Below, piece after piece: positions 17,705 to 63,271 of a DNA stretch of 64,000 nucleotides; within the stretch, counting starts at the first letter, position 1; each line of letters starts with the position of its first letter. This DNA is from Nemania diffusa (taxonomy: Eukaryota; Ascomycota; Sordariomycetes; Xylariales; Xylariaceae): positions 248,001 through 312,000 of the forward strand of contig JBBPUQ010000003.1 of the NCBI GenBank assembly GCA_038501195.1. Reading direction: 5' to 3'. Below the pieces are notes generated by a model. It searched no databases. It had not been told where the DNA came from and worked only from the letters and a program-made list of their open reading frames with translations. The position numbers and the translations under genes were made by a program.

Positions 17705-18550
17705 ATGGTCAAGACATACGTTCTCGCCCCGAACTGGACTACGGCGCCCCCGCCAGACGGTCCAATAAAGCTTGGCCACGTCCTGGATGACCTCACCGAG
17801 TTTGTCCCCCTTAACCGTAAAGATTTCGTCAAGATAGAGCCCGAGTACCTAAACAAGACCGACACTAAAGATGGATTCACAACGTCGCGCGCCGATCTCC
17901 TGTCGGGCGCGCTCGGCGTCTTTGCTCGCGTCATAGGACTAGTGGGCTTCGGCGCTGGCGCTGAAATGTATTATCGGAAGGATAAGAACGACGTCCTAGC
18001 ATGTACGACGCTGGACACTATGACCTTCGATCCGACTGTCGAGTACATCACGGAAACAATGGCGTTGGGCGAGATTAAGGCGTTCATGGAGGGGTGCAAA
18101 TTCAAGGCGCCAGTGTACATGATCACAGGACTGAAGATAGGTCGAGGGGTTTCCCTACAGAGCAGTGGGAGCATCGAGTATGGCGTGAGGTTGGACGGCG
18201 GCCTTAACCCCCCCGGGAGTGCTGCGCAGATCGGAGGTACGGGCGGCGTAGCCGTAAAGAAGGGCAATAGTGAGAACTGGACTGGCTCGACGGATTTTAT
18301 TGTTGCATTCCGGGCGAGAAAGATCTGGTATCACCACGGAGATTTTAAGAATAAGACTAACAAGGACAAGGTTGTTATGCAGGATGGTACACCGGTTCAT
18401 ATAGGCCCAGATATGACGCTACATGTAGACGACGAGATCCCACTTGAAGATATTTTCACAGATACACCTCTGACAACTACTCAAGATGATGAGGATGGAG
18501 AAGCGGTGAAGTGGGTTATTCCCGAAGTCATAGGGGAACTGACTTTGTAA
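17705..18550 (+). CDS. Fungal gasdermin-like protein (HET-Q1/RCD-1 class)
   Basis: An intronless frame of 281 aa, close to the usual fungal gasdermin length (about 250-280 aa). Family features seen: an N-terminal YVLAPNWTT segment followed by GPIKLGHVL; the central SRADLLSGALGVFARV stretch with a small glycine-rich hydrophobic region; FDPTVEYI; the strongly conserved PVYMITGLKIGRG block near residues 139-151; and a FIVAFRARKIW strand near residue 200. The ~70-residue tail is acidic (DDEDGE). Fungal gasdermins are kept inactive by a short C-terminal tail; proteolytic removal lets the N-terminal part assemble in and permeabilise the plasma membrane, killing the cell. The gene converges on a subtilisin-like protease gene (18669-21572), their stops 118 bp apart, the association known for het-Q1/het-Q2 of Podospora anserina. 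The assignment rests on motif recall, not a search. No frameshift or break is seen. Confidence 0.87.
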   Translation: MVKTYVLAPNWTTAPPPDGPIKLGHVLDDLTEFVPLNRKDFVKIEPEYLNKTDTKDGFTTSRADLLSGALGVFARVIGLVGFGAGAEMYYRKDKNDVLACTTLDTMTFDPTVEYITETMALGEIKAFMEGCKFKAPVYMITGLKIGRGVSLQSSGSIEYGVRLDGGLNPPGSAAQIGGTGGVAVKKGNSENWTGSTDFIVAFRARKIWYHHGDFKNKTNKDKVVMQDGTPVHIGPDMTLHVDDEIPLEDIFTDTPLTTTQDDEDGEAVKWVIPEVIGELTL

Positions 18551-18668
18551 GGGAATGCTTGGAGCGAAGAATTCAACAGGTCTTCGAGTTGTTCTAGGAT
18601 TTGCTGTGGCGAAAGAGTATATACATGAGTCCATTGACCAAACCCCATCCCCCCATTCAATGAAAATC

Positions 18669-21572
18669 CTACCTCAATGCTTCCTTGATTATCATAGCGA
18701 CACGATCTGGCATAGACAATTTCCACCAGGGCGCAAGGTATTCATAACCATCTCGGGGGTTTGACATAGCTATCAAGATGCTTTTCATCCCAGCACGGCT
18801 AGATGCCTCTTTAAAATGCTCCTCCGTCAACTCCTTGGTTTCTGTCAAATGTTGCACGAAACGGAGCACGTTGGCTGCAATACCGGCAGCCACGGGTGTC
18901 GAGTAGGATGTGCCTGACAGGTAGATGTCTTTTTCTGTTATCGACGGGATTGCAACTCCTAGGGTGCTAAAGTTCTCGCGTCCTATACTGGGTGACGGAT
19001 CCATGCCGCTCTTGTTTCCGTATCCGTCTGAGGCATGGATACAGAGGACTTTCTCTAGTGTCGCCGGGAATGACCTCTCCGCATTTCCTCCGTAGTTTGA
19101 GGCCGCTGCAAATATGATGACCCCATCATATTCTGCCTTCTCGATGGCAGCCTTTATGGCAACGTTTTTTTCCGTCAACGCAAATGACATTGTAATGATA
19201 TGGACGTTCTTTGTCTGTGCCCACAGAATCGCCTGCGTAGATGGGACTTGTCAGTCGTAAAAGCCGTCGCTTCTTGTGGACGGTCATGGACTCACTTCGA
19301 CGATTTGACTTGCCTGATCTCCCTGCTGAGAATGAGATATTTTGGCAACATAAAGGTCTGCGTTGGGGGCAATCTTTAAAACTAATGCAGCCACATTCGT
19401 GCCGTGCCCGAAAGTATCGGCCCTCGGTTCTCCAACAAAGGACTTTGTCTCTTGAAATGGACTTGACCTTCTCGATCTACGCACACCCCGAAAGAATGCA
19501 TTGTTCTCATCGACACCCGTATCTAATATGGCAATACGAACTCTTAAATCTCCTTGTAGATTTCCGTGAAACTCATCTGCACGCTTGAAGAATCCGTCTG
19601 CGAATGCGATTTTACTATAAAGCAGTTAGTCTTCTACTAACCAGCCACTCCTCGCTCTCAGTAGTACCCACTCAGAATCTACTGCGTTACTATGGTGCCT
19701 CCTGTCATCAAACAGGTCATTCAGTAACCCATGGTTAGGTCGGATAGGTGCATGGAGGGAGATGGGCTGCTGGCTGCCGAGATTTTTCGATGAATAAGGC
19801 TGGACGAGTGGTAATGGAGTGCTATGACTTTGAGTGATTTTCGGGACCGATAGTTCATAGGCGTAGTTGGGATCCCGTCTTGGGTCCCTTTTAGCATTTC
19901 GACGGGGTAGAAGGTCTGTTCGCGCAGATTCGAGGAGGGAAACGACCTCGAAAATAACATTTTTACATCGCCAACAGGCGTCGGTCTTCGAACCGCCTTG
20001 TGCGCCCTTATCATTGTCATCATCATCATCATCATCTTCATCTTCATTTTCCAAATTTGCTTCCAGACATGTTGTAACGGCTTCCACGTATTTTGGTCCC
20101 ACATTCTCGGACAGCCCTAGCACATCCTCGTCTACTACTTCAAGTAGAGCCACATCGAGACGGCGGTTGAAAGGCCCTAACGGCCTATCTAAGGCGATTT
20201 CGAGAAGTATCTTGGCAAAATAAACAAGGATGGTGAATTTGATTGAATTGGCCAGTTCGGTATCCTTAGGAGCCTCCGCCTCCATCAGCGAATGTGCTAG
20301 GTAAGGGTTGTACGCTTCATACATCTTTCCCTTTGAAGGGTCAAAGAGGAAGAAAATATCTCGGGCCGTCCACTGCCTATTTTGTATTCCGGCGTGGTAC
20401 ATGCGAAGAAGCGTATAGGATAGGTTCAATGCTAGGACAGCTTTGTGATATGGTTTGAAACCCTGCCCGCTAACAAGCATGGCTTCCAACGATAAAGTTG
20501 GCCAGATAGGAGGCATTTTAACAATTCGGGGTGGCCCTGGGTGTCGTAGAATACGAGATGCATACACCCATACGTCTAGGGTAGTCTCCTTGTTGAGAGT
20601 GTTGCGGATAGTTTCGCAGACGTTCCGAACGTTCCTGAACTTGAGATTAGAAGGCGGCCTAGCAGTCAATCTTCTATTAGGACATATCGATCTTTAACAT
20701 CTAGTGATAGTCTTTACTTACAACTGAGAGACGATTGTGCATGCTGTTTCTTGCCACTTTTCTTCGGCTGAGCAGCAAGATAAGAAAATCTTGTGCTGGA
20801 TGCCATTGGCGGACTCAGTGGTACTATTGGGATGTTGGATCTGGAGCTTGGTAATGTGTTTCAAGTTACACGCTTGAGCATCGATGTTCTCCTTCAATGC
20901 GCTCAGCAATGTTAGTAGAGATTGACAAAAATCATCCATGCTCGTAAATATAGGGTTGGATGTCGTCTTGTTATGATATGCGCTCTGATAATTGATATCC
21001 CAAGCTTCATGGCGCGTGATCGTGTTAAACCGAGCGATGTTGCTAGCATTGAAATCAGTTATCGTTTTCTCTACCTCCTTGGACCTGTCGATCGTGTCTG
21101 GAAGACGTAGAAATGTAGAAAGATCCGAAGACGTCGATTCGCTCGACACTCGCTTCATTAGAGCTTCGAGCTTTGGATATAATATCGGTATCTTGGAAGG
21201 CTCTTTGCTAGGTGCATTTGAGGGCGTGGTAGCAATGTTCGCTACGTGATATTCTATCTCTTCTATAGCATCAGGCGGGCCGTTCTGTGGGTAGAGGACT
21301 CGTTCGTCAGTAAGGTCCTCAAGCAACTGAAAAACATGGTGTAGGCCATCGAGGAAGGCTTTATGTTCATCTGACGACAAATCCTGGCCTCTTGCAGTGT
21401 AAAGAAAGACTTGGTCAATCTCGTATTTAAAAAGCCTTCTGGAGTTTAACATGGCGAGGCTCGATATCCTTTGAGTGTCGTCCCTGATTCGCTTTTCAAT
21501 AAGCGGTGCTATCTGTTGATGCACCGTGCTGAAAGCTTGCAGCTCAGGGCCTGCAAATTTATCTCGAGGCAT
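18669..21572 (-). CDS. Subtilisin-like serine protease with N-terminal DUF7580-like region (HET-Q2-like)
   Basis: Model on the minus strand: exons 21572-20722, 20673-19672, 19614-19296 and 19232-18669; 911 aa. Splice junctions restore one frame throughout; introns are 48, 57 and 63 bp, and the second has a perfect GACTAAC branch site. The C-terminal third is a peptidase S8 domain with all catalytic residues visible: Asp649 in AILDTGVD, His688 in FGHGTNVAAL, oxyanion Asn770 in AASNYGG and Ser833 in SGTSYSTPVAAG. The N-terminal ~530 residues resemble the fungal DUF7580 module that precedes effector domains in incompatibility proteins (TARDIFFLF motif), with an acidic Asp run near residue 490. 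No signal peptide is seen, so a cytosolic protease is inferred. Its natural substrate is probably the neighbouring gasdermin, as HET-Q2 cuts HET-Q1. It is divergently transcribed from the NLR gene at 22082. Confidence 0.88.
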
Positions 21573-22081
21573 ATTTGGCGTAGAGGTGATATCAATCCTA
21601 ACTATGAATGAGAAACGACGTCGATTATGGGATGCTTAATGTCATATATGAGTACTTGACCATTAGCAACCTAAGTAGTGCGCCTATATGCGTATAGCGC
21701 CGTAGTTCTATTGCGTGACACTCAATTTCAGCTGCTATCGATTTTGGGTCTCGGACCAACAAAGGACAGAACCCAGCTAAATAAGTGACGGGAACCTGCA
21801 ACCTACGTCCTGGTCGGATTGCCATTTTGGTACAGCATGTCAGCATATGCTCATTGGGCCAAAGTAATGTGAATTGCGAAAATGACTGCATGAGGAGACT
21901 GCACGAGGATGCTTTGGAAACCTGTGTTAGTACTAATATGTACACTGTATAACCGAAGAAATTTGAATGCCACCACTGCTTCCCCATTCCACTTCATTCA
22001 GCTGCTAATCTCTACGACTCTCCATTGTAGTGCTCACGGCAATAGGAAAAGACCATAACTAGGGCTCAACGTTTACCCATT
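21573..22081. promoter_or_regulatory. Shared divergent promoter region between protease and NLR genes
   Basis: Only 509 bp separate the start codons of the subtilisin-like protease (minus strand) and the NLR gene (plus strand). No gene fits inside. Co-regulation is inferred from spacing alone; no specific factor-binding site was identified. Confidence 0.5.
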
Positions 22082-25000
22082 ATGGCGTCTGCGGCTTTTC
22101 TTGAGCAGCACCCGAAACGAGATATCTTTCAACTGGCTCAGACCTGTGAGAGTTTGTTCCTGCAATACACTGATCTGCAGTTTGAACCGACAGAAAATCG
22201 TACTAAAGCCGACCTCCAACTGCAGCGCTTCTATGTCTGGGCTTCTTATCTTGGAGTGTTTGCCAGCTATGATGCTTCCCTCGATAAGCGATTAGAGTAC
22301 AGCGATCAAGTCCAGGACCTTGTACTACAATTGCTATCATTAGTGCGAATAAACCTCGAGTTCCGTAAGTCTTGTAGATCAAAAACAGTCGGTATAGGTG
22401 TCGCTAAGTGCCCTTTTCAGTAAATTCCGAGGACCTCAACGACAAGCCGATGCAAATTGCAGTGGAAACCGAAAGCGATATCTTAAAAACAGAAGGAAAA
22501 TCCAAACTTCAGGGAACCGCCACCGAAGCCTTAGACGCCGTGGAAGCTACAATCAACCGACTGAACAGCCTAGGCATAACAGTTCGGAGACATTCAGCCT
22601 CTAGCCTTGATGATCGGGTGAAGGCTTTTACGAATAGGCATGGGGATGACAATTACCCTTACACAGAGTTCGCAAAACAGATTGTTTATCACAAATATCG
22701 AGCTGCGCCACCTTCCCTACAGATGCAACTCGCCCTATCAATGTCGGCGAGACGCCAAAGATTAGAATATATTAAACAGCATCAGCGGAAACTCGCCATT
22801 CGCTCGCCGCACGACGCAAGAAATGAACCGGCAAATTGGCTGCAGACGAAACAGTCCGGCTTACGTTCAAATAACGCGCCAACCACCGGGTCAGAAGTAG
22901 ATCAGAGAAAGCTAGCATTCGGCCCATCTAACAACAATCTGCTAGTCGGAGCACTCGCCCCCCCTTCTGTGCACACGAACGCTTCAAACTTTAAACAAAC
23001 ACCATCGCTGATGCTCAAGTTACGAGTGCCCGACGGAGCTTCTGTAGTGTCTTCATCGAAGCAGAGCACAACGCTCATAGCTGAGAATCTAGAAGAATAT
23101 CCTGAGCCACCCAAAAAGGAGGCCGGGAAGCCGGACCCAACATGTCCCTATTGTTACCAACCATTCCAAGATTCTGACTTAAAGATTCAGAACTGGAAGT
23201 AAGACAACCATCGCGCCAAGGCCTGAGCCAATGCTAACAGCCAGCAGAAAACACGTAGACCAGGATCTTCGGCCATTTGTCTGCATTTCAGACAAATGCA
23301 ACCAACAATCGCCTCTAGTGTCCCAAGATTGGCGGATCTGGGCTAACCACATGAGACAATCCCATTCAAATAGGTGGACACAGTTAGTTCACAAACCAAC
23401 TGTCTGGCGCTGTGACCTTGGCCACCAAAGTAATGTATTTACTGACAAAGAGAGCTTTGAGGAACATCTTAATAGCATGCACGGAGACTGTAGTGAGGCG
23501 ACACGAAGGGCCATCTCCCAATCCTGCAAAGTTTATCGAAGAAGGGGGCCAAATATTTGCCCTCTATGTGGCTACGATGTCTGCAAGCCTCGTTCCTCAG
23601 ACGCTTCGCCAGATCAAACGAAGCTCGACGACGCCGAAGGCCTCACCAGGCTAACGAAGCACATCGCCGGCCACCTTCGCGGGCTAGCGTTCCACAGTGT
23701 GAATAATTTAGGTGCTGAGGCAGACGGAGACAGTCTTCCCGGGAGTATAGAGACGTCGAGCAGGAACAAGCTGGACGGATCCAAAACGCGCCCACCAAGC
23801 GGGCTAAAGGATCTTTCACGTGTTTCTTTAAGCTTTCCTAACACTCCAACTCTGGAGTTTAGGACCGATGCCGCCGAGTTTGATGCAGATTGGAGTCATG
23901 CTGAGTTGACACTTTTAGGGGCGATCCCGGAGGAGCTCTCCTTGGCCGATGCTGTCGACTGGGACGCTGTAAAGGCGAACCTGAAGAGGCACATAAAACC
24001 AGAATTCCTTGCAGAGCTGGAACATGACCAAGAGCCAGAATCTTCTGACCCGATTCTTCAACACCTACTTCAACAGAAATTGTTACGAGAGCCATTCGAT
24101 GATGACATCGGGCCGCTTGATTTGCAAGATGACTGTGGAGGGCCTACAAGCGGATTCGACCTGGTATTCGTCCATGGCCTTCGCGGGTCACGATTGAAGA
24201 CTTGGTCTCGTGATGGTATCTTTTGGCCGCACGATCTACTCAAGGACGATCTGAAAAATACCAGGGTAATCACATGGGGTTACGATGCTAATATCGCCAA
24301 CGCCTTTCAGTATTTTAGTAATGAGAGCCTCTTTGGACATGCCACTAGATTGCTAAACGACCTCGCCAGACTCAGGCGGGGAATAGTATGCCCTCCTCTT
24401 CCCACCACCTAAAAGATTATATTTTGCTTACCAGACTGAGCTAACAATGTCTGAACAGATCAGACCCATCATATTCATATGCCATAGCCTCGGTGGCCTC
24501 GTTGTGAAGCAAGCCCTGATCACCTCGGACAGCTACAACATTCATGGATGGCCACCCGCCAACATCGTCGCCGATATCTATAAGAGTACCGCTGGAGTTA
24601 TTTTCATGGGAACGCCACACCGAGGGAGCCTCAAAGAAACATACGGCGAAATTGTGGTAAAGGTTGCCAAGCTGTCTCTTCGCCGACCAGATGACCAGCT
24701 TCTCCAGACATTAAAACCCGACTCCCATATCCTCGAGAAGCAACGCGATGACTTCATAACAATCTCAAAGGATATGACCATTGTCTGTATCAGGGAAGAG
24801 CTTCCTACTGGAGCTGGTCTGGTACGAATATTTTTCTCGTTAATATCACATTGCTCGTCGCAACACCCTACTAAAAGTTTTCATTACTAGATTGTTCCGG
24901 AAGCATCTGCGACGTATGATGGGTTTAATGTTGTCCGCGGCGCAATCCATGCGAACCACATAGACATGGTCAAGTTCGCTACGAGGGTTGAAGGCTACGA

Positions 25001-27624
25001 AAGAACGCTCGGCCACATCCGAGACATTATAAACGACAAATTGTCTGAGGTGCAAAAAGGTATTCAGCTGAATTCTTTTCCTAACCCTATTAATAATACA
25101 CATAAAGTCCCGGGATCTACTACAAAGCCCCTTAAATCTTGATCTATGACAGTGGGGTTTCTATTTTGATCCTGGTCCCATAATTTCCCGCAATATCCGA
25201 TCCCTTTCGTAATAGACAGAAGCTGACATTCCCCTAGATCAGAAGAAAGTCGAAGCTTGGAATAAAAGTGAGTCATTCTATGCCATGCTGGACCTTATCA
25301 AATCGTGTACTTAAGATTTTGTAGAAATCCTTAATGCTTTGAGGTTCCCAGGAATCTTTGAAAGAGAAGAGATGGTAGAGCAGGCATATGCCGAAACTTG
25401 TTCCTGGGTTTGGGGTCGTATACCAACAAGTGGTAGGACGATATTAGCGGAACCATGTGAGTTTATCTCATGGCTTCGGAGTACCGAGCCGCTCCTTTGG
25501 ATTAGCGGCAAGGCCGGGTGCGGGAAGTCCACCCTCATGAAGCATATTTACCGCCACCCAAGAACGAAACTTGAGCTTGAGAATTCATCGTGGGCCGCCG
25601 GGAAAGACTTGATCTTCATCGGGCATTTCTTTCACGACCGCGGTACGAATGACCAGAAGTCAAGGGAAGGAATGCTCAGGAGTATTTTGTCTCAGGTGCT
25701 TGATATGCAGCCCCATCTTATCCCCATAGCTTTCTCTGAAAGCCGATTTGCCCACAGCGATCACTCAGGGAACCCAGAATATAAGCTGGAGATGACGACA
25801 GAGTTGCTTACCTGGGAAACCCTCAGCAAGGCTTTTCTTTCCATGCTGCAACATATGGGTAATTTTAAGATCTGCCTCTTCCTGGATGGTTTGGACGAAT
25901 ATCGAATGGCTGGAAGGGAAGACCAGTATACGGAACAGGAGCTGAACCTAATTTACGATGGCACTAACGAAGATGAGGCCTGGGGCCGAAGTAGGTGGAT
26001 AACCGAAGGACACAAAGAGGTTGCGAAGTTCCTTTTCAAGTTCAGCACTCACAAGAACGTGAAAGTCTGTATATCCAGCAGAGAACTAGTTGTGTTCGAG
26101 CATGAATTCCGAAGTCTACCGAGAATTATGGTCGATACTCATACAGCTGAAGCTATTGCCCAGTACTGCACAGGCCGCTTAACGAAAGAGACACCTGATC
26201 TCGTGGAGATGCAAAGGTTTATAGCTGAGATTACGCATAAGTCACTCGGCGTATTTCTCTGGGCCCAACTTGTTGTCGACTTGTTGGTTGATGGACATAC
26301 CAACGGCGACTATGATAGAGAACTCTGGGACAGACTGGGCAAAGTTCCTGTAAGACTTGGGGGGAGAGACGGCTTGTACATGCATATGATGCGGAATATC
26401 GAGCGAAAATATCTCCCGGAGTCGAAGAGACTGTTTCAACTTGTTATGGGTCCGTTCCAACTTGCTATGAGATTCAGCGAGAATGATATAGACATTATAA
26501 CTTTGTTCCTAGCGGAAGAAGGGCATCTCCAAGATGGTACCACGGAAGACCTAAGAGCTATTAGTGATGACTATGAGCTCAACACATGGGATGAATGGGC
26601 AATTAGACGGGATAGGCTACAAAAGCGCCTCAAGAGTCGTTGTGGCGGTCTTCTTGAAAGAACAAAACCAGTGCAATTCATGCACCAGACGGCAAAACAG
26701 TTCATTTCGAGGAAGTATCTGTGGGATGAAATTTTTCTCAACGTCGACGGGTTCACTTCTGAAGTGAATGTGACCCTTGCGATGGCAAGTGGATTGATTC
26801 GACGCCTGAAGTGCTGCGCTGAGGCTGTTGTCATTCATGATTACGATAGCAGTCGCGATGCCGATAATTTGCACTCAACATACAACTTCCCCGCCTTTAT
26901 CTTTACAATTGTGGAACTTCTAAAGCGTGTGGAATTACCTCATCAGATGAACGACAGCCCTGATGGCTCTGAGAACCACGCCCAGAGGCTCTTCGAAGAG
27001 CTAGATCACGTTGGGCAACGACTTACACGTACCTTCAGGTCCTCTTACAAACATTTCGAATCTTGTTGGCCTGCAGCTTATTATGATATCGTGCATGCCA
27101 CATCTAAGCAATTAACCAGTTTTTTGGACTTAATGGTCGTGTTGAAATCTGAGCACTATGTAGAGATAAAACTGGGAGCTCAAATTTCTTCTAGTGACGA
27201 ATTAGCGCGCCTCTTATCGATTGCCGTGTTTACTACGCAGTTGCATTTCAAGAGTGGCCGTGCCGGCATAGTCGTGAATCGATCCGCCAAGATTATAGAG
27301 AGCCTCCTCAAACGAGGCGCCAATCCAAACGCACAAGTTGATTCAGAAGATGGCCTAAGGCCAAGGATAACTGTGTGGGTATGCTTTCTCCAAAACATAA
27401 ATTGGAATCCAGCGTTTATGAATCGTCTTGAAGCGGAAATTGCGACTGCGAAAGTATTTATAAAATATGGGGCTGATCCTACAGCACGTTGGGATACCGG
27501 CACACCGGAATCGGTCTTAATGCAAGGGTTAGACCGTGCGCCGGAGGCCAAGAAGGATATCGACGAGCTCTTAGAGCTTTTACGCCAGGCCAGGGAAAAG
27601 AGCGTGGGTCAGGAGATAAAGTAA
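22082..27624 (+). CDS. NLR/STAND protein: zinc fingers, alpha/beta hydrolase, NACHT, short ankyrin-like tail
   Basis: Model: exons 22082-22364, 22421-23198, 23245-24385, 24459-24821, 24891-25059, 25238-25267 and 25325-27624; 1,687 aa, frame preserved at every junction. Order of parts: an N-terminal helical region; Cys/His pairs resembling degenerate C2H2 fingers (CPYC near 335, CISDKC near 365, CPLCGYDVC near 447, HIAGH near 480); a SesB-like alpha/beta hydrolase (FVHGLRG near 660, nucleophile Ser744 in ICHSLGGL, then MGTPHRGS and a candidate His in AIHANHIDMVKF); a NACHT NTPase with Walker A GKAGCGKST (Lys989) and Walker B FLDGLDEY (Asp1109). The end has only two weak ankyrin-like units (LLKRGANPN, KYGADPT), not the long repeat array of many fungal NLRs. 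These proteins are intracellular non-self sensors whose hydrolase or other N-terminal domain is the effector. The 30-nt exon 6 and its flanking 178-bp intron are the least certain part. Confidence 0.85.
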
Positions 27625-31604: not shown

Positions 31605-33289
31605 TCATAGTGGCAAGGACCCCAATGACGGGTCAATCAGACCATTGAGTTCATCCGACCCAATCAGTCTTCTCATCTCGGCTTCGTCCTTAAGCCATTC
31701 TTCATCGACACCCATGTTGTCCGCGTTGAACGTCTCCATGCCCGCATCAGCCCCAACCCAGAAATCCTCCCCGGTATAATTCCATTCAGGTACATCTTGT
31801 GCGACATCTTGGAGGGCCGGCAATGGCTCTAGGGCGGCGTCGGGATCTACAACACTATCGAGAAGAGCTTGCTCTATTTGGTGTTCGCTTTGAACATGGG
31901 CCTCTAACTCGCCACTGTAGGTGAACTTCATAAAGCAGCCAGGGAATGTACATGGCATTGTCCTTCGTGATTTCTCGCTAAAGCCTGTCAGCTGTTCCAG
32001 CATGGTAAGATTAGTTTGATGTTGCAGCGAAGACAGCGGACCCGTTGAATGGTTAGGTTCTGGTCTCTCCTGCATCAAGTGTACGTAGCGCACGTGATTC
32101 TCTAGTGTAAGCTTGAGATTGAAGGCTTGCCCACAACCTTGGCTGTTTGACCAAGTCGCCAGATCTTCCGTCTTGCTCAAGTCAAACTCACCACACACGA
32201 AACGCACGCCTTTATGAGCGCTGCGAATGTGTACATTCAAGTTTGACGTCCTCGTAAAGGATTTGTTGCATCCGGGCCACGTGCAAACAACCGTCTTGCG
32301 CTCTTCCGCCGACCTGCGGTTTGCGTGGTCGGACTCGAGATGTCTCTCAAGTTCTTCCCTTCCCTCACAGGACTCCCCACAGAACATACAGTTGATATGA
32401 GAATTCTTCATATGTGCCTGCAGAAGAGTAAGTGTGGGGAATCCCACTTTCTTTGGGTTGCCCTGGTCGTCCTTCTGGGTGGCACATTCATCACACCAGA
32501 AGCGGTTCTCTCCATGATCCCGTTCCTGGTGTCGTCGTAAAGCACCGGCCGTGTCAAACCCCTGCCCGCAGACGTTACTCGATTCGCCTACTTTATGGGT
32601 GCACGGGAATGCCGGTTCGTGTTGATGCTCGGTTCGGATATGGCGCTGGAGCGTCTGGTGCTTGCGAAAACTCTGATTGCAGGGAGGGAAATCGCGGCAT
32701 CTGAATCGCTCCTGGCCTTCGTGGACTAACTGGTGTCTTCGGAGGCGGGTGGCCGTCATGAACGACTTCCCGCAGCCCTCATAGGTGCAGACGTGATCTC
32801 TCTCGGCTGTGTGAGACCCTTTGACGTGTTGTTTGAGATGCTTCTCCTCTATGTAGTCCTTGCCGCAGCCGGGGTATGGGCAGCTGAAGGGGCGCTCATT
32901 ATTATGAGATCGGAGGTGGGCAGCAAGACGGGCTGGGCGGTTGAAGGTCTTGTTACAGTCTGGATATGTGCACTTGATGGTTTTCAGGTCCGAAGGCCAC
33001 TTTCGAGCTGGGCTCAGGGGTGTAAGCGGCGTGCCTGCTAGAAACGTGGATGTGATTTCGGTATATCGAGACTCGGTGTCAGAGACATCGCAATTCGGGT
33101 CGAATTCAAAGTCGGGGCCCTCTGAGAAAACAAGAGAGCCTAGTTAGCTATAGCTGGCCTACGACGAATCGAGATGGTACCCTCCCCAGAATACGAGTAT
33201 AGCGTACCAGTGAGAATGGGAGGAACATCGGTTCGGCCTCGCTTTGACAGAGGAGAACCCCCTGGCGCTTCAATGGCTGTTCTCTTCAT
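31605..33289 (-). CDS. Transcription factor IIIA-like C2H2 zinc-finger protein
   Basis: Model on the minus strand: exons 33289-33208 and 33121-31605; 532 aa, one 86-bp intron. Ten C2H2 units are visible in sequence, the first three of the regular form CxxxxCxxxF...HxxxH (for example CTYPDCNKTF, CPYPGCGKDY, CTYEGCGKSF). Later fingers have long inserts between cysteines (GESSNVC and the SKTEDLATWSNSQGC insert). The C-terminal ~110 residues are acidic. This finger number and spacing match fungal TFIIIA, which binds the internal control region of 5S rRNA genes and recruits TFIIIC/TFIIIB for RNA polymerase III. The start MKRTAIEAP was chosen because it is in frame with a spliced acidic linker; an upstream ATG adds about 20 unconserved residues. 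Divergent neighbour: RPB6. Confidence 0.88.
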
Positions 33290-59844: not shown

Positions 59845-60793
59845 GGTCCGTAAACCTACCTCATCTACCCACTCCAGTCACTAGAATTTATGAGGACCAA
59901 ACAGAATGCATTTGAAGAGGCTAATAGAAGTGAAGATTGCATTGCACACGGCTTGCGAGTATAGCCGTGAGGCCACGAGCTCGAGGTTGGGATTGGAATG
60001 ACAGAGATCCACAGAATACACTCATTACTGTCTCCTTCGCCATGTTGCAGCATAACAACTAGCCTGTTGGCAGGCTACGTAATACGGGATATTGATTGAA
60101 GTAGGAAAGACACTTGTTTCGAGTTTCATTTGAGAAGGTGGCGAAAACTCATAGTGACAACTTTGTGCATAAAGCAAATTTTACGCGCGAAGGAACGAAC
60201 GGATATGCTCACATGGGTTTTAGAATGCGCCTACACAGTCCTTACCTTAAGAATTCTATAGTACGCTAATACAATTGGTTAGCTGTCGAATGCATGTCGA
60301 AGTGCTTGTAACCAACGTAGTCTGCTTGTTGATTCACATCTAAGGCAATCAAACTTGATGGAAAGCGGGTGGTGTCGTGAAGAATAGGCTCGGGGATTGA
60401 ATCAGTGAAAAGCCGGGATGTGACTCAAAAAGGGGTGGATCGCCCTATGTGCGAGACAAAGAGCACTAGTGTAGGAGATAAGCTGAGAACTTGTCTCATC
60501 TGTCGGAACAGGCCTCTAGATCTTATGCTTAAGTAGAATCGGTATGTACGGGGTATGGAATACATAATGGGTTTACGCAGTGTGGGCATCCCAAATCGTC
60601 ACATCTTTATTGGCCGTCCGAAATGGGGGGCCATCATTTTGATCACACCTTTTCTGGCGGCCATTTGTTGGCCTATGCAAATAGTGAATTTAAATAGTTT
60701 CACATGCAATCAATCATTTATTCGGGCTTCCAATAAAGGGTTCACTATCTGCTACCTGCAACTGGAAGTTACTGAAGCATAACAATATTGACG
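59845..60793. other. Intergenic, promoter of CHAT gene
   Basis: No supported gene. A short frame at 60,555-60,782 is featureless. Undetected 5' exons of the CHAT gene could lie here, but no convincing ATG and donor pair leading into its frame was found. Confidence 0.45.
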
Positions 60794-63271
60794 ATGCGTT
60801 GCCCAACTTCACAGGATGCTAAATCGGACCAATCGGCGGGTTTACTCGGGCAGCCAACTAGAAGGTATGTCAAATATGCTTCCTTGCAGACGTGTAGTAA
60901 ATTAATTGAAAGGAGATCATGTCTGGATTCCAAGAACTCGAAGTGGATCAGTACTAGCATAATGCATCCTCTGCCCTGCGAATACCAATGCACGGATGAG
61001 ATACTCCGCCTGCAGCCAGAACTCTCTCCAACTGAAGAGGCGCTATGTACGATGCCTTGCAAACGCCTACGCCACACAGGCGGGTTAATCAACCAGGGTA
61101 GCCGGCTAAGCACAAGATACGATGAAGGGCTGAATGGGAAACTAACGCCAACTTATCATTCATGTCAAGGAAGGCGTTTAAACAGTCTCGGAATGTGGGT
61201 CGTGAGAGAGTATAAGAGAACCAGGAACTTCACCGACTTAGAAGACACACTTCGGCGAACCGACGAAGCCTTGGCCATCACCCCCTGCCACCATGCCGAC
61301 CGAGCATCTTACTTCAACAGCCTCGGAATTATGTTAGCAGGCAAATACTCGGCAGCCGGATTGCTAACTATGTTATCGATCAAAGGGACACTCGGATTAA
61401 GTCCTACCTGCGCTCCTGAGACAACGAATCGCTCGAATGGTTTGGCGGCGATAACCTACCAGAAATATCATCACACGGGATTCCAGGGTGACCTAGATTA
61501 TGCCATCCGTCGGGCTGAGGAAGCCCTTGTGGCTATGCCCACCGACCATCCATATCAAGCGCTCGGTTTAACTAGCTATGGGGATCTACTATATTGTAGA
61601 TATGGCCAGCCAGGCGCAACGGAGGCCCAAAAACGGCGCGACTGCACTGATTGCGTGTCACACTACCAACAAGCCTGGAATAGCCCCAAGAGCCCACCCG
61701 CTGTACGGATACGAGCAGCTCAGAAAGCCGCGAAAATTCTTCTGAGGTTAGGGAACTATGAGGGGTCCAATATTCTTCTCCATAATGCCGTTTCACTACT
61801 CCCAAGTATAAGTCATCTCGACTCAAATCAGCAACGCCGGCAATATATCCTAGAAGAATTCACAGGCCTTACTACCTTAGCTGCTTCTATGGCCCTCGAA
61901 GTATGGAAAGAGCCGATACGCTCTCTACAACTTCTCGAAGAAGGTCGAACAGTTAATGTAAGACGACAGCTTAACATTCAGACAGCCTCATCAGCCTTCG
62001 AATTGCAACAGCTAGATATATCTCAGAAATTGAAATGTGCTGATACTATTTCCACATCACGAAATTACTTTGTTGCTGCTACACAGGCAGATATAGCTAC
62101 CGAAGCTATAAGCAAAATGCCTCATCTTGAAACAGTTTTGTTGTCCCCCATTGCGGCGGAATTTCAAGTTGCGGCGTCAGGCGGCCCGGTCATCGTTATA
62201 AACGTCAGTCCTTTCCGTTGTGACGCGATTTTGATACAGAACTGTTCAATTCGCTCTCTGCCCCTTCCTAGCCTTAATTACAAGGTTCTGAGACAAATGG
62301 TTGATCTCTTTACGGGAGCTCGTGGCTCAATGAAATTTTTCTGTCACCAAGGGGAGGTTAATAAGATGTTAGAATGGCTTTGGGATGTGGTAGCATCTCC
62401 GATTCTTAATGAGCTTGGTTTTCGGGAGCCACCACGTGAAGGCGATCCGTGGCCGCACGTTTGGTGGATACCAACCGGCTTGCTGAGTATGTTGCCAATC
62501 CATGCAGCCGGCCGTCATAATTCCGTATTATCAGAAACAGTTGTTGACAGGGTCATATCGTCATACTGTCCGTCTATAAAAGTTTTGCTTTATCAACGAA
62601 AGCAGACCGCTGAGTACAGTCATGCCTGGGGGGAGGCCTGCGTCGTCTCAATGTTGACAACACCGGGGTGCTCACCTCTGCCTACCGTCGGCGAAGAGAT
62701 CGAGTCGGTTAAAGCCCTATTGCCGGCGCTACAAATTAAGTCCAGCCGACTACTCTATAATCCACGAAAGGAGGACGTCATTGAGGGACTCAAAAGCTGC
62801 GACTTCTTTCATTTTGCAGGCCACGCCGTTTCAAACCCTCTGTATCCGTCAAAAAGCTACCTCGTTCTAGATGACTGGAAGGAGAACCCGCTAACGGTTG
62901 AAAGCATATTAGAATCAAATTTAGAAGGTAAAACCCCCTTCTTAGCTTATTTATCAGCATGTTCCACGGGCGCTGGGCCAACGGAGTGTCTAAACGATGA
63001 ATCAATCAATCTTATGACAGCTTGCCATCTAATTGGTGTTCGGCACGCCGTGGGATCACTATGGAACTTGTTCGAAGAATATCCTTCTATTGCTGCAACC
63101 CAATTCTATAAGACACTTGGAAATAACGACATCGTTGATGACCATGCTGTTGCATTAGCAGTACATACCACAGTAAGGCGAATCCGCGAGATCACCCGGA
63201 ACCCCGAAGACTCTGGCCGTGGCGCCGGTGACGTTTTCGCTTGGGCTGCATATATTCATATTGGCCCCTAG
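60794..63271 (+). CDS. TPR-CHAT protein (caspase-like cysteine protease)
   Basis: An intronless 825-aa frame. The N-terminal ~330 residues contain degenerate tetratricopeptide-type repeats (LNSLGMWVVREYKRTRNFTDLEDTL, YFNSLGIMLAGKYS, GDLDYAIRRAEEALVAMP, LTSYGDLLYCRYG). The C-terminal ~350 residues are a CHAT domain, a clan CD peptidase: WWIPTGLLSMLPIHAAG, the catalytic histidine in FFHFAGHA (His677), SYLVLDDW, and the catalytic cysteine in LAYLSACSTGAG (Cys723), followed by LIGVRHAVGSLWN. Both catalytic residues are intact. CHAT proteases activate death effectors, including gasdermins, in bacteria and are a second protease class clustered with fungal gasdermins. No gasdermin adjoins this one; the nearest candidate partner is the small protein at 59533. 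TPR units are irregular and the very N-terminus is unconvincing, so the real start may differ. Confidence 0.85.
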   Translation: MRCPTSQDAKSDQSAGLLGQPTRRYVKYASLQTCSKLIERRSCLDSKNSKWISTSIMHPLPCEYQCTDEILRLQPELSPTEEALCTMPCKRLRHTGGLINQGSRLSTRYDEGLNGKLTPTYHSCQGRRLNSLGMWVVREYKRTRNFTDLEDTLRRTDEALAITPCHHADRASYFNSLGIMLAGKYSAAGLLTMLSIKGTLGLSPTCAPETTNRSNGLAAITYQKYHHTGFQGDLDYAIRRAEEALVAMPTDHPYQALGLTSYGDLLYCRYGQPGATEAQKRRDCTDCVSHYQQAWNSPKSPPAVRIRAAQKAAKILLRLGNYEGSNILLHNAVSLLPSISHLDSNQQRRQYILEEFTGLTTLAASMALEVWKEPIRSLQLLEEGRTVNVRRQLNIQTASSAFELQQLDISQKLKCADTISTSRNYFVAATQADIATEAISKMPHLETVLLSPIAAEFQVAASGGPVIVINVSPFRCDAILIQNCSIRSLPLPSLNYKVLRQMVDLFTGARGSMKFFCHQGEVNKMLEWLWDVVASPILNELGFREPPREGDPWPHVWWIPTGLLSMLPIHAAGRHNSVLSETVVDRVISSYCPSIKVLLYQRKQTAEYSHAWGEACVVSMLTTPGCSPLPTVGEEIESVKALLPALQIKSSRLLYNPRKEDVIEGLKSCDFFHFAGHAVSNPLYPSKSYLVLDDWKENPLTVESILESNLEGKTPFLAYLSACSTGAGPTECLNDESINLMTACHLIGVRHAVGSLWNLFEEYPSIAATQFYKTLGNNDIVDDHAVALAVHTTVRRIREITRNPEDSGRGAGDVFAWAAYIHIGP

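Follow-up and report, generated by a model that had tools for sequence, protein, structure and literature searches.

A probable three-gene, pyroptosis-like cell-death cassette in the fungus Nemania diffusa

The window, a 64,000-nucleotide stretch of contig JBBPUQ010000003.1 of Nemania diffusa, contains a gasdermin gene, a convergent protease gene and, divergent from the latter, a large third gene. The features of the locus are as follows, in window coordinates.

17705..18550, + strand: fungal gasdermin, 281 aa, single exon, putative executioner (open reading frame, sequence, fold and 59 homologues)
18335..18547, + strand: C-terminal extension of the gasdermin, residues 211-281, beyond the RCD-1 match; candidate removable inhibitory tail
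18551..18668, no strand: gap between the convergent stop codons of gasdermin and protease, 118 bp (coordinates)
18669..19232, - strand: protease exon 4, holding Ser828 (codon 18906-18908; junction matches homologues)
18837..19541, - strand: Peptidase S8 (subtilase) domain, spanning intron 3 (PF00082, E 2e-20, spliced protein)
19296..19614, - strand: protease exon 3, holding Asp644 and His683 (model and homologue junctions)
19672..20658, - strand: protease exon 2 (model and homologue junctions)
20016..20933, - strand: DUF7580 domain, protein residues 214-498, spanning intron 1 (PF24476, E 2.9e-33)
20722..21572, - strand: protease exon 1, with the start codon (spliced gene model)
21573..22081, no strand: 509 bp separating the divergently transcribed protease and third genes, putative two-way promoter (coordinates)
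22082..27624, + strand: third gene, about 1701 aa, with a helical/C2H2 N-terminal half, a DUF676 hydrolase-like part and a NACHT-type NTPase (NPHP3_N) (Pfam, homologues)
22082-22364, 22421-23198, 23245-24385, 24435-24821, 24891-25059, 25220-25267 and 25325-27624, + strand: the seven modelled exons of the third gene
23243..23707, + strand: C2H2-like zinc-finger block of the third gene (exon 3 from 23245; own-genome search match)

The gasdermin gene is one uninterrupted frame from ATG to TAA, and its translation contains both blocks, PVYMITGLKIGRG and SGALGVFARV, from which a sequence-only reading of this DNA had recognised a 281-aa gasdermin; the distance of 118 bp that it gave between the two genes was reproduced on recalculation. 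In a phmmer search against PDB sequences the top match was RCD-1-2 (8jyz; E 1.1e-4, residues 12-207). An AlphaFold2 model of modest confidence (mean pLDDT 71.4) matched RCD-1 chains in rows 1-14 of the Foldseek list (best E 6.3e-8), with low query-normalised TM-scores of 0.30-0.41 over these 14 rows, and rows 15-20 were bacterial gasdermins, at E values of 3e-3 to 3e-2; GSDMD appeared at E 0.38 only. No Pfam family matched the protein (best E 0.17). The profile search suggested in the sequence-only reading came out divided, the S8 profile matching the protease and the curated Pfam gasdermin profile giving no match, while the structure prediction it called for recovered the gasdermin fold, RCD-1 first and bacterial gasdermins next. 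The outcome that it had named as fatal, a missing gasdermin fold, did not occur, the Pfam profile apart. A protein search returned 59 homologues, and our alignment A1 has 53 rows, made up of the window protein and 52 of these (P0034, P0037, P0039, P0041, P0043, P0044 and P0046, short or partial, are left out). Judged by its sequence and predicted fold, the 281-aa protein is a genuine fungal gasdermin with an RCD-1-related pore-forming fold.

The sequence alignment to RCD-1-2 stops at residue 207. Beyond it, the AlphaFold2 model has a poorly modelled linker (residues ~211-236) and predicted strands at 237-242, 256-263 and 266-273, and conservation across 37 rows including the window protein is 0.49-0.56 for residues 211-263 as against 0.69 for residues 264-274. 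With its predicted strands and conserved end, this extension is a candidate inhibitory tail. RCD-1-1/RCD-1-2 of Neurospora crassa, which provide the closest solved fold, differ in this respect: they are not controlled by cleavage according to excerpts of PMC12881547, and the match to them ends where the extension begins. HET-Q1 is described in the available part of PMC10989679 as a gasdermin of 278 aa from which cleavage removes about 40 C-terminal residues.

The protease gene encodes 906 aa in four exons with no internal stop; its introns of 63, 57 and 63 bp are all GT-AG, the least certain boundary being the donor of intron 2 (GTGGGT), where the protein is one residue longer than its homologues. 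Whole-genome profile searches also matched S8 and DUF7580 at this position, and about 630 residues lie N-terminal to the S8 domain. The complete subtilase claimed earlier stands, its triad being intact, and only the numbering changes, from 649/688/833 to 644/683/828; this constant offset of 5 probably arose because a different upstream exon boundary had been chosen. Among 7992 candidates scored we found at least 22 homologues, of which 7 cover at least 98% of the protein, 3 cover 64-70% and 12 cover 20-34%. In alignment A4, which holds 20 of the 22 (P0078 and P0080 are left out), His and Ser do not vary and Asp is kept in 19. By sequence, the protease thus has the S8 domain and catalytic triad that mark a HET-Q2-like (Q2L) protease. 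As for DUF7580, the predicted order of strands and helices and some motifs of the DUF7580 protein P0061 look kinase-like by eye. The DUF7580 profile gave 0 matches to PDB sequences, and fold searches returned lists filled by subtilases, viral kinases appearing in one whole-protein search at E 0.47 or worse only.

The third gene model has uncertain borders at exons 5 and 6, where six variants remained. Pfam searches of its frames gave NPHP3_N above the cut-off (E 3.3e-21) and the NACHT model below it (E 0.0015); a search with residues 1-1100 gave NPHP3_N again (E 4.3e-16) and also DUF676, whose 20.8 bits narrowly exceed the cut-off of 20.3. An ankyrin match (E 0.061) and a HeLo match at the N-terminus (E 0.016) fell below threshold. 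On this sequence evidence the third gene carries the NACHT/NB-ARC-type NTPase expected of an NLR. No Pfam zinc-finger model passed its cut-off on the 23243..23707 stretch, nor in six scanned frames of this genome; the homologue in N. mangrovei does have C2H2 fingers above cut-off, at its C-terminal end. At least 7 homologues were found among 7993 candidates scored, 6 of which form alignment A5 (P0087 is left out). Across the family, the C2H2 N-terminal half is joined in frame to different C-terminal halves: NACHT, TPR-CHAT, TPR, kinase-like or Hsp70-like. The same window also holds a CHAT gene, 33 kb from the cassette.

Gene order at this locus is kept in other species. Gasdermin and protease homologues have adjacent locus tags in four other species, and in three of these four the third-gene homologue bears the next tag; all three genes are tag-consecutive in three species and near-consecutive in a fourth. 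In D. australafricana no third-gene homologue was among the matches listed, a weak absence because only 7993 candidates were scored. The distant gasdermin of F. floridanum (33% identity) and the protease homologue there are not neighbours by tag, and in Cadophora the third-gene homologue and a gasdermin fragment show different longest contigs. From these sequence comparisons, the pairing of gasdermin and protease appears to be more than chance. Protease and third-gene distances over four taxa correlate at r 0.97, a value equalled by 4 of 24 permutations, and any linked genes that are inherited together should show such a correlation. The gasdermin-protease distance set comprises eight hand-picked taxa: the window and four others, in which the genes are shown to be linked, plus C. 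destructivum, F. graminearum and F. falciforme, in which they are not; the gasdermin-third gene set comprises six hand-picked taxa, including Cadophora, whose gasdermin is a fragment without shown linkage.

Within this genome, a divergent C2H2-family gene is found at 13 of 17 DUF7580 loci and the C2H2-like zinc-finger block recurs at about 20 loci; these totals are lower bounds because only the best candidates were scored, and the C2H2 and gasdermin counts are also biased upward, since the C2H2 queries were taken from the neighbourhood of DUF7580 genes and 3 of 8 gasdermins turned up in a search around DUF7580-S8 genes. Of the 17 DUF7580 loci, 15 came from a first genome search and two were added singly, the last of them having a TAG codon in frame within its match; three genome searches pooled gave the 20 C2H2 loci, and 32 genome matches, merged by hand into genes, gave the 25 S8 loci. 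Gasdermin-like frames occur in all eight regions examined, which had been pre-chosen for gasdermins or DUF7580-S8 genes. The C2H2-DUF7580 pairing is also present where no S8 match is near, and neither DUF7580 nor C2H2 was matched within 6 kb of one gasdermin-S8 pair (L024). The earlier description of a two-gene system is not supported, since the divergent zinc-finger/NACHT gene tracks the pair both by gene order and through the C2H2/DUF7580 pairing.

We propose to read the locus as a pyroptosis-like cassette for cell death with three genes, encoding a sensor, a DUF7580-subtilase and a gasdermin (probability roughly 0.68). That it contains a gasdermin together with its activating protease is very probable; that the third gene belongs to the same unit is likely as well, and its action upstream as the sensor is the reading we lean towards. 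The gasdermin would be made as an inactive precursor restrained by its short C-terminal tail, and the DUF7580-subtilase would be its dedicated activator, silent at rest and probably restrained by its own N-terminal/DUF7580 part; with the two genes present together in the same assembly, the protease is presumably inactive by default. The zinc-finger/NACHT protein would act as receptor, coupled to the DUF7580 protease through its constant N-terminal half and sensing with its variable C-terminal one. Once triggered, it would release the subtilase, which would cut the gasdermin in the linker ahead of the tail, and the freed gasdermin domain would form plasma-membrane pores and kill the hyphal compartment.

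The convergent gasdermin-subtilase pair is of a known fungal kind, and to this extent the intact cell-death module of the sequence-only reading holds. The excerpts of PMC10989679 and PMC10197012 put the share of fungal gasdermin genes with a protease gene nearby at about 80%, and the gasdermin/Q2L clusters of Clave et al. 2022, as reported in parts of PMC10197012, PMC10989679 and PMC12881547, likewise have a gasdermin adjoining a multidomain S8 protease; unlike them, the pair in the window is accompanied by the divergent C2H2/NACHT gene. The available parts of the literature searched, where Clave et al. 2022 is represented by reviews, mention no C2H2 gene in gasdermin clusters and do not describe a C2H2/NACHT third partner; the three-gene cluster of Chaetomium globosum in those reviews belongs to amyloid signalling rather than to the gasdermin clusters. 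The term "DUF7580" was absent from the literature searched. Equivalence to HET-Q1/HET-Q2 of Podospora anserina, which had also been suggested, does not hold: the gasdermins are similar in size (278 aa and 281 aa) and both systems have an S8 protease, but HET-Q1 and the 388-aa HET-Q2 are idiomorphs at one locus (PMC12881547 and PMC10989679, in part), whereas here the genes lie side by side and the protease is a long, multidomain protein of 906 aa with DUF7580. Bacterial gasdermins share the fold and also cluster with a protease (excerpts of PMC12881547), with a weaker structural match to the window protein.

It is possible, though unlikely, that the locus is an ordinary two-gene Q2L cluster in which the DUF7580 part is the sensor and the C2H2-NACHT gene an unrelated neighbour in an immunity-gene-rich region. 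Two-gene clusters are the norm in the accessible parts of PMC10989679 and PMC10197012, no third-gene homologue stands beside the Diaporthe pair among the matches listed, and the CHAT gene of the window would fit such a region; the consecutive tags in other species and the 13 of 17 DUF7580 loci with a divergent C2H2-family gene argue against it. Less probable is a regulatory role for the C2H2 gene, whose product would then control the divergent protease gene, as a transcription factor or local regulator, and would not be a sensor of the pathway. Its C2H2-like fingers, the 509-bp divergent region and the persistence of the C2H2-DUF7580 pairing without a nearby S8 match would suit a regulator. 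However, in-frame fusion of the C2H2 half to NACHT, TPR, TPR-CHAT and kinase-like parts would be unusual for one, and zinc-finger models passed in 0 of 6 own-genome frames, although the N. mangrovei protein does have passing fingers.

A het-Q-type heterokaryon-incompatibility (allorecognition) locus with alternative alleles among strains seems slightly less probable again. HET-Q1 and HET-Q2 do employ a gasdermin and an S8 protease (excerpts of PMC12881547 and PMC10989679), but both genes are found together here and, judging by locus tags, in four further species, and the protease is more than twice as long as HET-Q2. That these are decayed or silent relics of a formerly active module is very improbable: gasdermin and protease have open frames and conserved domains, the introns are GT-AG, the triad is intact, and the same partners adjoin in other species.

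The three-gene cassette is comparable to the mammalian pathway in which the inflammasome activates caspase-1 and this in turn gasdermin D: by analogy, a putative receptor, a protease and a gasdermin would be separate proteins in both, with a subtilase in place of the caspase and with DUF7580 and C2H2 parts in the window. Some fungal gasdermin clusters are "contracted", the protease lying within the receptor, and are contrasted with the mammalian layout in the available text of PMC10197012. The stimuli that activate putative sensors of fungal death pathways are a major open question according to excerpts of PMC12881547, and a separate receptor-like partner beside the protease offers a testable gene for this trigger question. 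Its constant N-terminal and swapped C-terminal halves suggest which parts may signal and which may sense, and because the C2H2/DUF7580 pairing is repeated, a single genome supplies several natural variants on which specificity could be tested. More tentatively, these genes may represent a fungal plug-in chassis for death signalling, in which a C2H2 adaptor half with interchangeable sensor ends (NACHT, TPR-CHAT, TPR, kinase-like, Hsp70-like) is wired to a divergent DUF7580 hub with interchangeable output, either a subtilase that activates the gasdermin beside it or effector parts of another kind at the N-terminus. On that view the cassette would encode a fungal pathway of three steps, inflammasome-like and not contracted, and each diverged copy in this genome would serve as an insulated circuit running in parallel.

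CHAT proteases were considered as partners of two gasdermins without S8 (on contigs C11 and C6) and rejected, as 0 of 6 CHAT matches lay on those contigs. Three S8-less DUF7580 proteins (L018, L021 and L022) may have HeLo-like N-termini; a Pfam search of these N-termini found no HeLo-like family. Own-genome searches with the diverged gasdermins of C5 and of C1 at 6.23 Mb returned the queries themselves and, for the latter, one weak further match.

We find that the gasdermin and subtilase genes probably form a cassette with a third gene, which lies divergently from the protease gene and is separated from it by 509 bp. The 281-aa frame and the minus-strand gene put forward in the sequence-only reading were both confirmed, and the three genes are placed as follows:

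17705-18550, + strand: gasdermin, a 281-aa open frame
ending at 18669, - strand: DUF7580-subtilase, convergent with the gasdermin
22082-27624, + strand: third gene, seven-exon model of about 1701 aa, with uncertain exon 5/6 borders

The protease model has four exons, separated by introns of 63, 57 and 63 bp, and yields a 906-aa product with DUF7580 (E 2.9e-33) and Peptidase_S8 (E 2e-20) domains by Pfam; in this numbering the catalytic triad is Asp644, His683 and Ser828. At the junctions of introns 1 and 3 the model agrees with its homologues, and at intron 2 it has one residue more than they do. The third protein is composed of a helical/C2H2 N-terminal half, a DUF676-like part (20.8 bits versus a cut-off of 20.3) and a NACHT-type NTPase (NPHP3_N, E 3.3e-21). 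The window also holds a 512-aa open frame with a C2H2 zinc-finger array (31608-33143, - strand; Pfam E 5.3e-30), a multi-finger protein that does not resemble the C2H2 N-terminal half encoded by the third gene.

The gasdermin protein had no significant Pfam match; Neurospora RCD-1-2 matches its residues 12-207 (phmmer, E 1.1e-4). In a fold comparison, a structure model built from 53 sequences (mean pLDDT 71.4) had RCD-1 chains as its first 14 matches, followed by six matches to bacterial gasdermins. The closest named gasdermin is from Neocosmospora mangrovei (73% identity), and searching the window with a gasdermin profile gave no further gasdermin. Past the RCD-1 match the protein extends through a poorly modelled linker and predicted strands to a conserved end. 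By analogy with HET-Q1, which cleavage shortens by about 40 residues according to the review PMC10989679, this extension is probably an inhibitory tail.

Taken alone, the gasdermin-protease pair is a well-known type of cluster; about 80% of fungal gasdermin genes lie in such clusters, according to the reviews PMC10989679 and PMC10197012. Locus tags of both genes were shown for five species. They are neighbours in four of these, namely Conoideocrella luteorostrata, Fusarium nematophilum, F. lateritium and Diaporthe australafricana. F. floridanum is the exception: its gasdermin match is distant (33% identity) and not next to the protease. Colletotrichum destructivum and F. falciforme may each carry both homologues on one contig, since the longest contig has an equal length for the two proteins, and a second gasdermin of C. 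luteorostrata is located elsewhere by tag. Pairwise distances of the gasdermin correlate with those of the protease (r 0.89, eight taxa) and of the third gene (r 0.90, six taxa), while the protease-third gene value (r 0.97, four taxa) was matched by 4 of 24 permutations and is indistinguishable from chance. These correlations fit inheritance as a unit and are no proof of interaction.

In the window's own 55.6-Mb assembly, searches that scored the best candidates alone, so that all totals are lower bounds, found at least four further gasdermin loci by homology, five including the window. An S8 match adjoins three of these: the window, C1:5.257 Mb, where the gasdermin is convergent with S8 and DUF7580 is present, and C1:0.53 Mb (L024:3359-6631), a divergent S8-gasdermin pair representing another layout, with no DUF7580 match within 6 kb and one at a distance of about 11 kb from its gasdermin gene. 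Three other DUF7580-S8 genes proved, when their flanks were read, to have a convergent gasdermin-like frame each (E 1.4e-12, 2.3e-10 and 1.5e-5 against the window-family profile); all five DUF7580-S8 genes found thus have a convergent gasdermin, three of these gasdermins having been found by looking there. A larger cluster, L029/L042 (G000:C5, 1.464-1.475 Mb), has a C2H2 gene, a divergent DUF7580 gene with no S8 found, and next a convergent pair made up of a gasdermin-like frame and a DUF7580-S8 gene. On contig G000:C11 (L025:2544-6009) a gasdermin gene is convergent with a C2H2-half gene, followed by a 742-aa fungal protein kinase frame; S8 and CHAT matches are both missing from that contig. 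For the gasdermin gene on G000:C6 (L026:4805-5914), S8 and C2H2-family matches are both absent within 6 kb, and its contig carries no CHAT match.

The most likely order of action is that the third protein would sense a trigger, upon which the DUF7580-subtilase would be released and would cut the gasdermin tail, and the cut gasdermin would form pores. That the protease acts on the gasdermin is likewise most likely, by analogy with published relatives. We place the third protein upstream because of the NACHT, TPR and CHAT ends in its family, its kept position, and its division into one constant and one variable half. At least seven homologues were found with its first 650 residues (7993 candidates scored). 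Much of the N-terminal half is common to the six aligned, that of N. mangrovei being without stretches of it, and the remainder is not common to them. The homologues of F. lateritium, F. nematophilum and N. mangrovei end NACHT-type, that of C. luteorostrata in TPR plus CHAT, that of F. decemcellulare in CHAT, and that of Cadophora in an Hsp70-like part scoring just over the cut-off.

As rivals to this order, the third gene might be a chance neighbour of the pair or a local regulator, or the locus might be an allorecognition locus. The position of the third gene in other species bears on the first of these: three of the seven homologues have a protease-adjacent tag (QQS21_002505, ACHAPT_009171, ACJ41O_015088), and Neosp_010019 stands two tags away from a gasdermin, Neosp_010021, the intervening tag not being seen. 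No linkage was seen for Cadophora, F. decemcellulare and one further homologue, and none of the seven is from Diaporthe. Within the own assembly, the C2H2 family has at least 20 loci at the thresholds used, and one lies within 6 kb of 13 of the 17 DUF7580 loci, divergently in all 13; random placement gave at most 3 such neighbours in 20,000 trials. The C2H2 queries were taken from loci beside DUF7580, which biases the pairing count and leaves the uniform divergent order unaffected.

An S8 match within 6 kb is missing at 12 of the 17 DUF7580 loci, and all four such genes at L017, L018, L021 and L022 are divergent from C2H2-family genes; the three of these proteins that were read (L018, L021, L022) have a different, hydrophobic N-terminus resembling IAGLVLGA or LAGLVLGA. 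Across short introns of 55 or 51 bp the C2H2 frame continues in frame into TPR repeats at L027/L039 and into a kinase-like region at L028/L041 (kinase match under the Pfam cut-off); the L023 C2H2 frame had no Pfam match. We class the cassette as a whole as a variant of known gasdermin-protease clusters, its apparently new part being the C2H2 third gene and the DUF7580 pairing: neither a third gene of the C2H2 family whose C-terminal half is swapped nor the C2H2/DUF7580 pairing is described in the review passages and paper listings covered. About 33 kb from the cassette, the window also contains an 831-aa open frame (60776-63268, + strand) whose C-terminal part is a caspase-related CHAT domain (E 7.4e-33).
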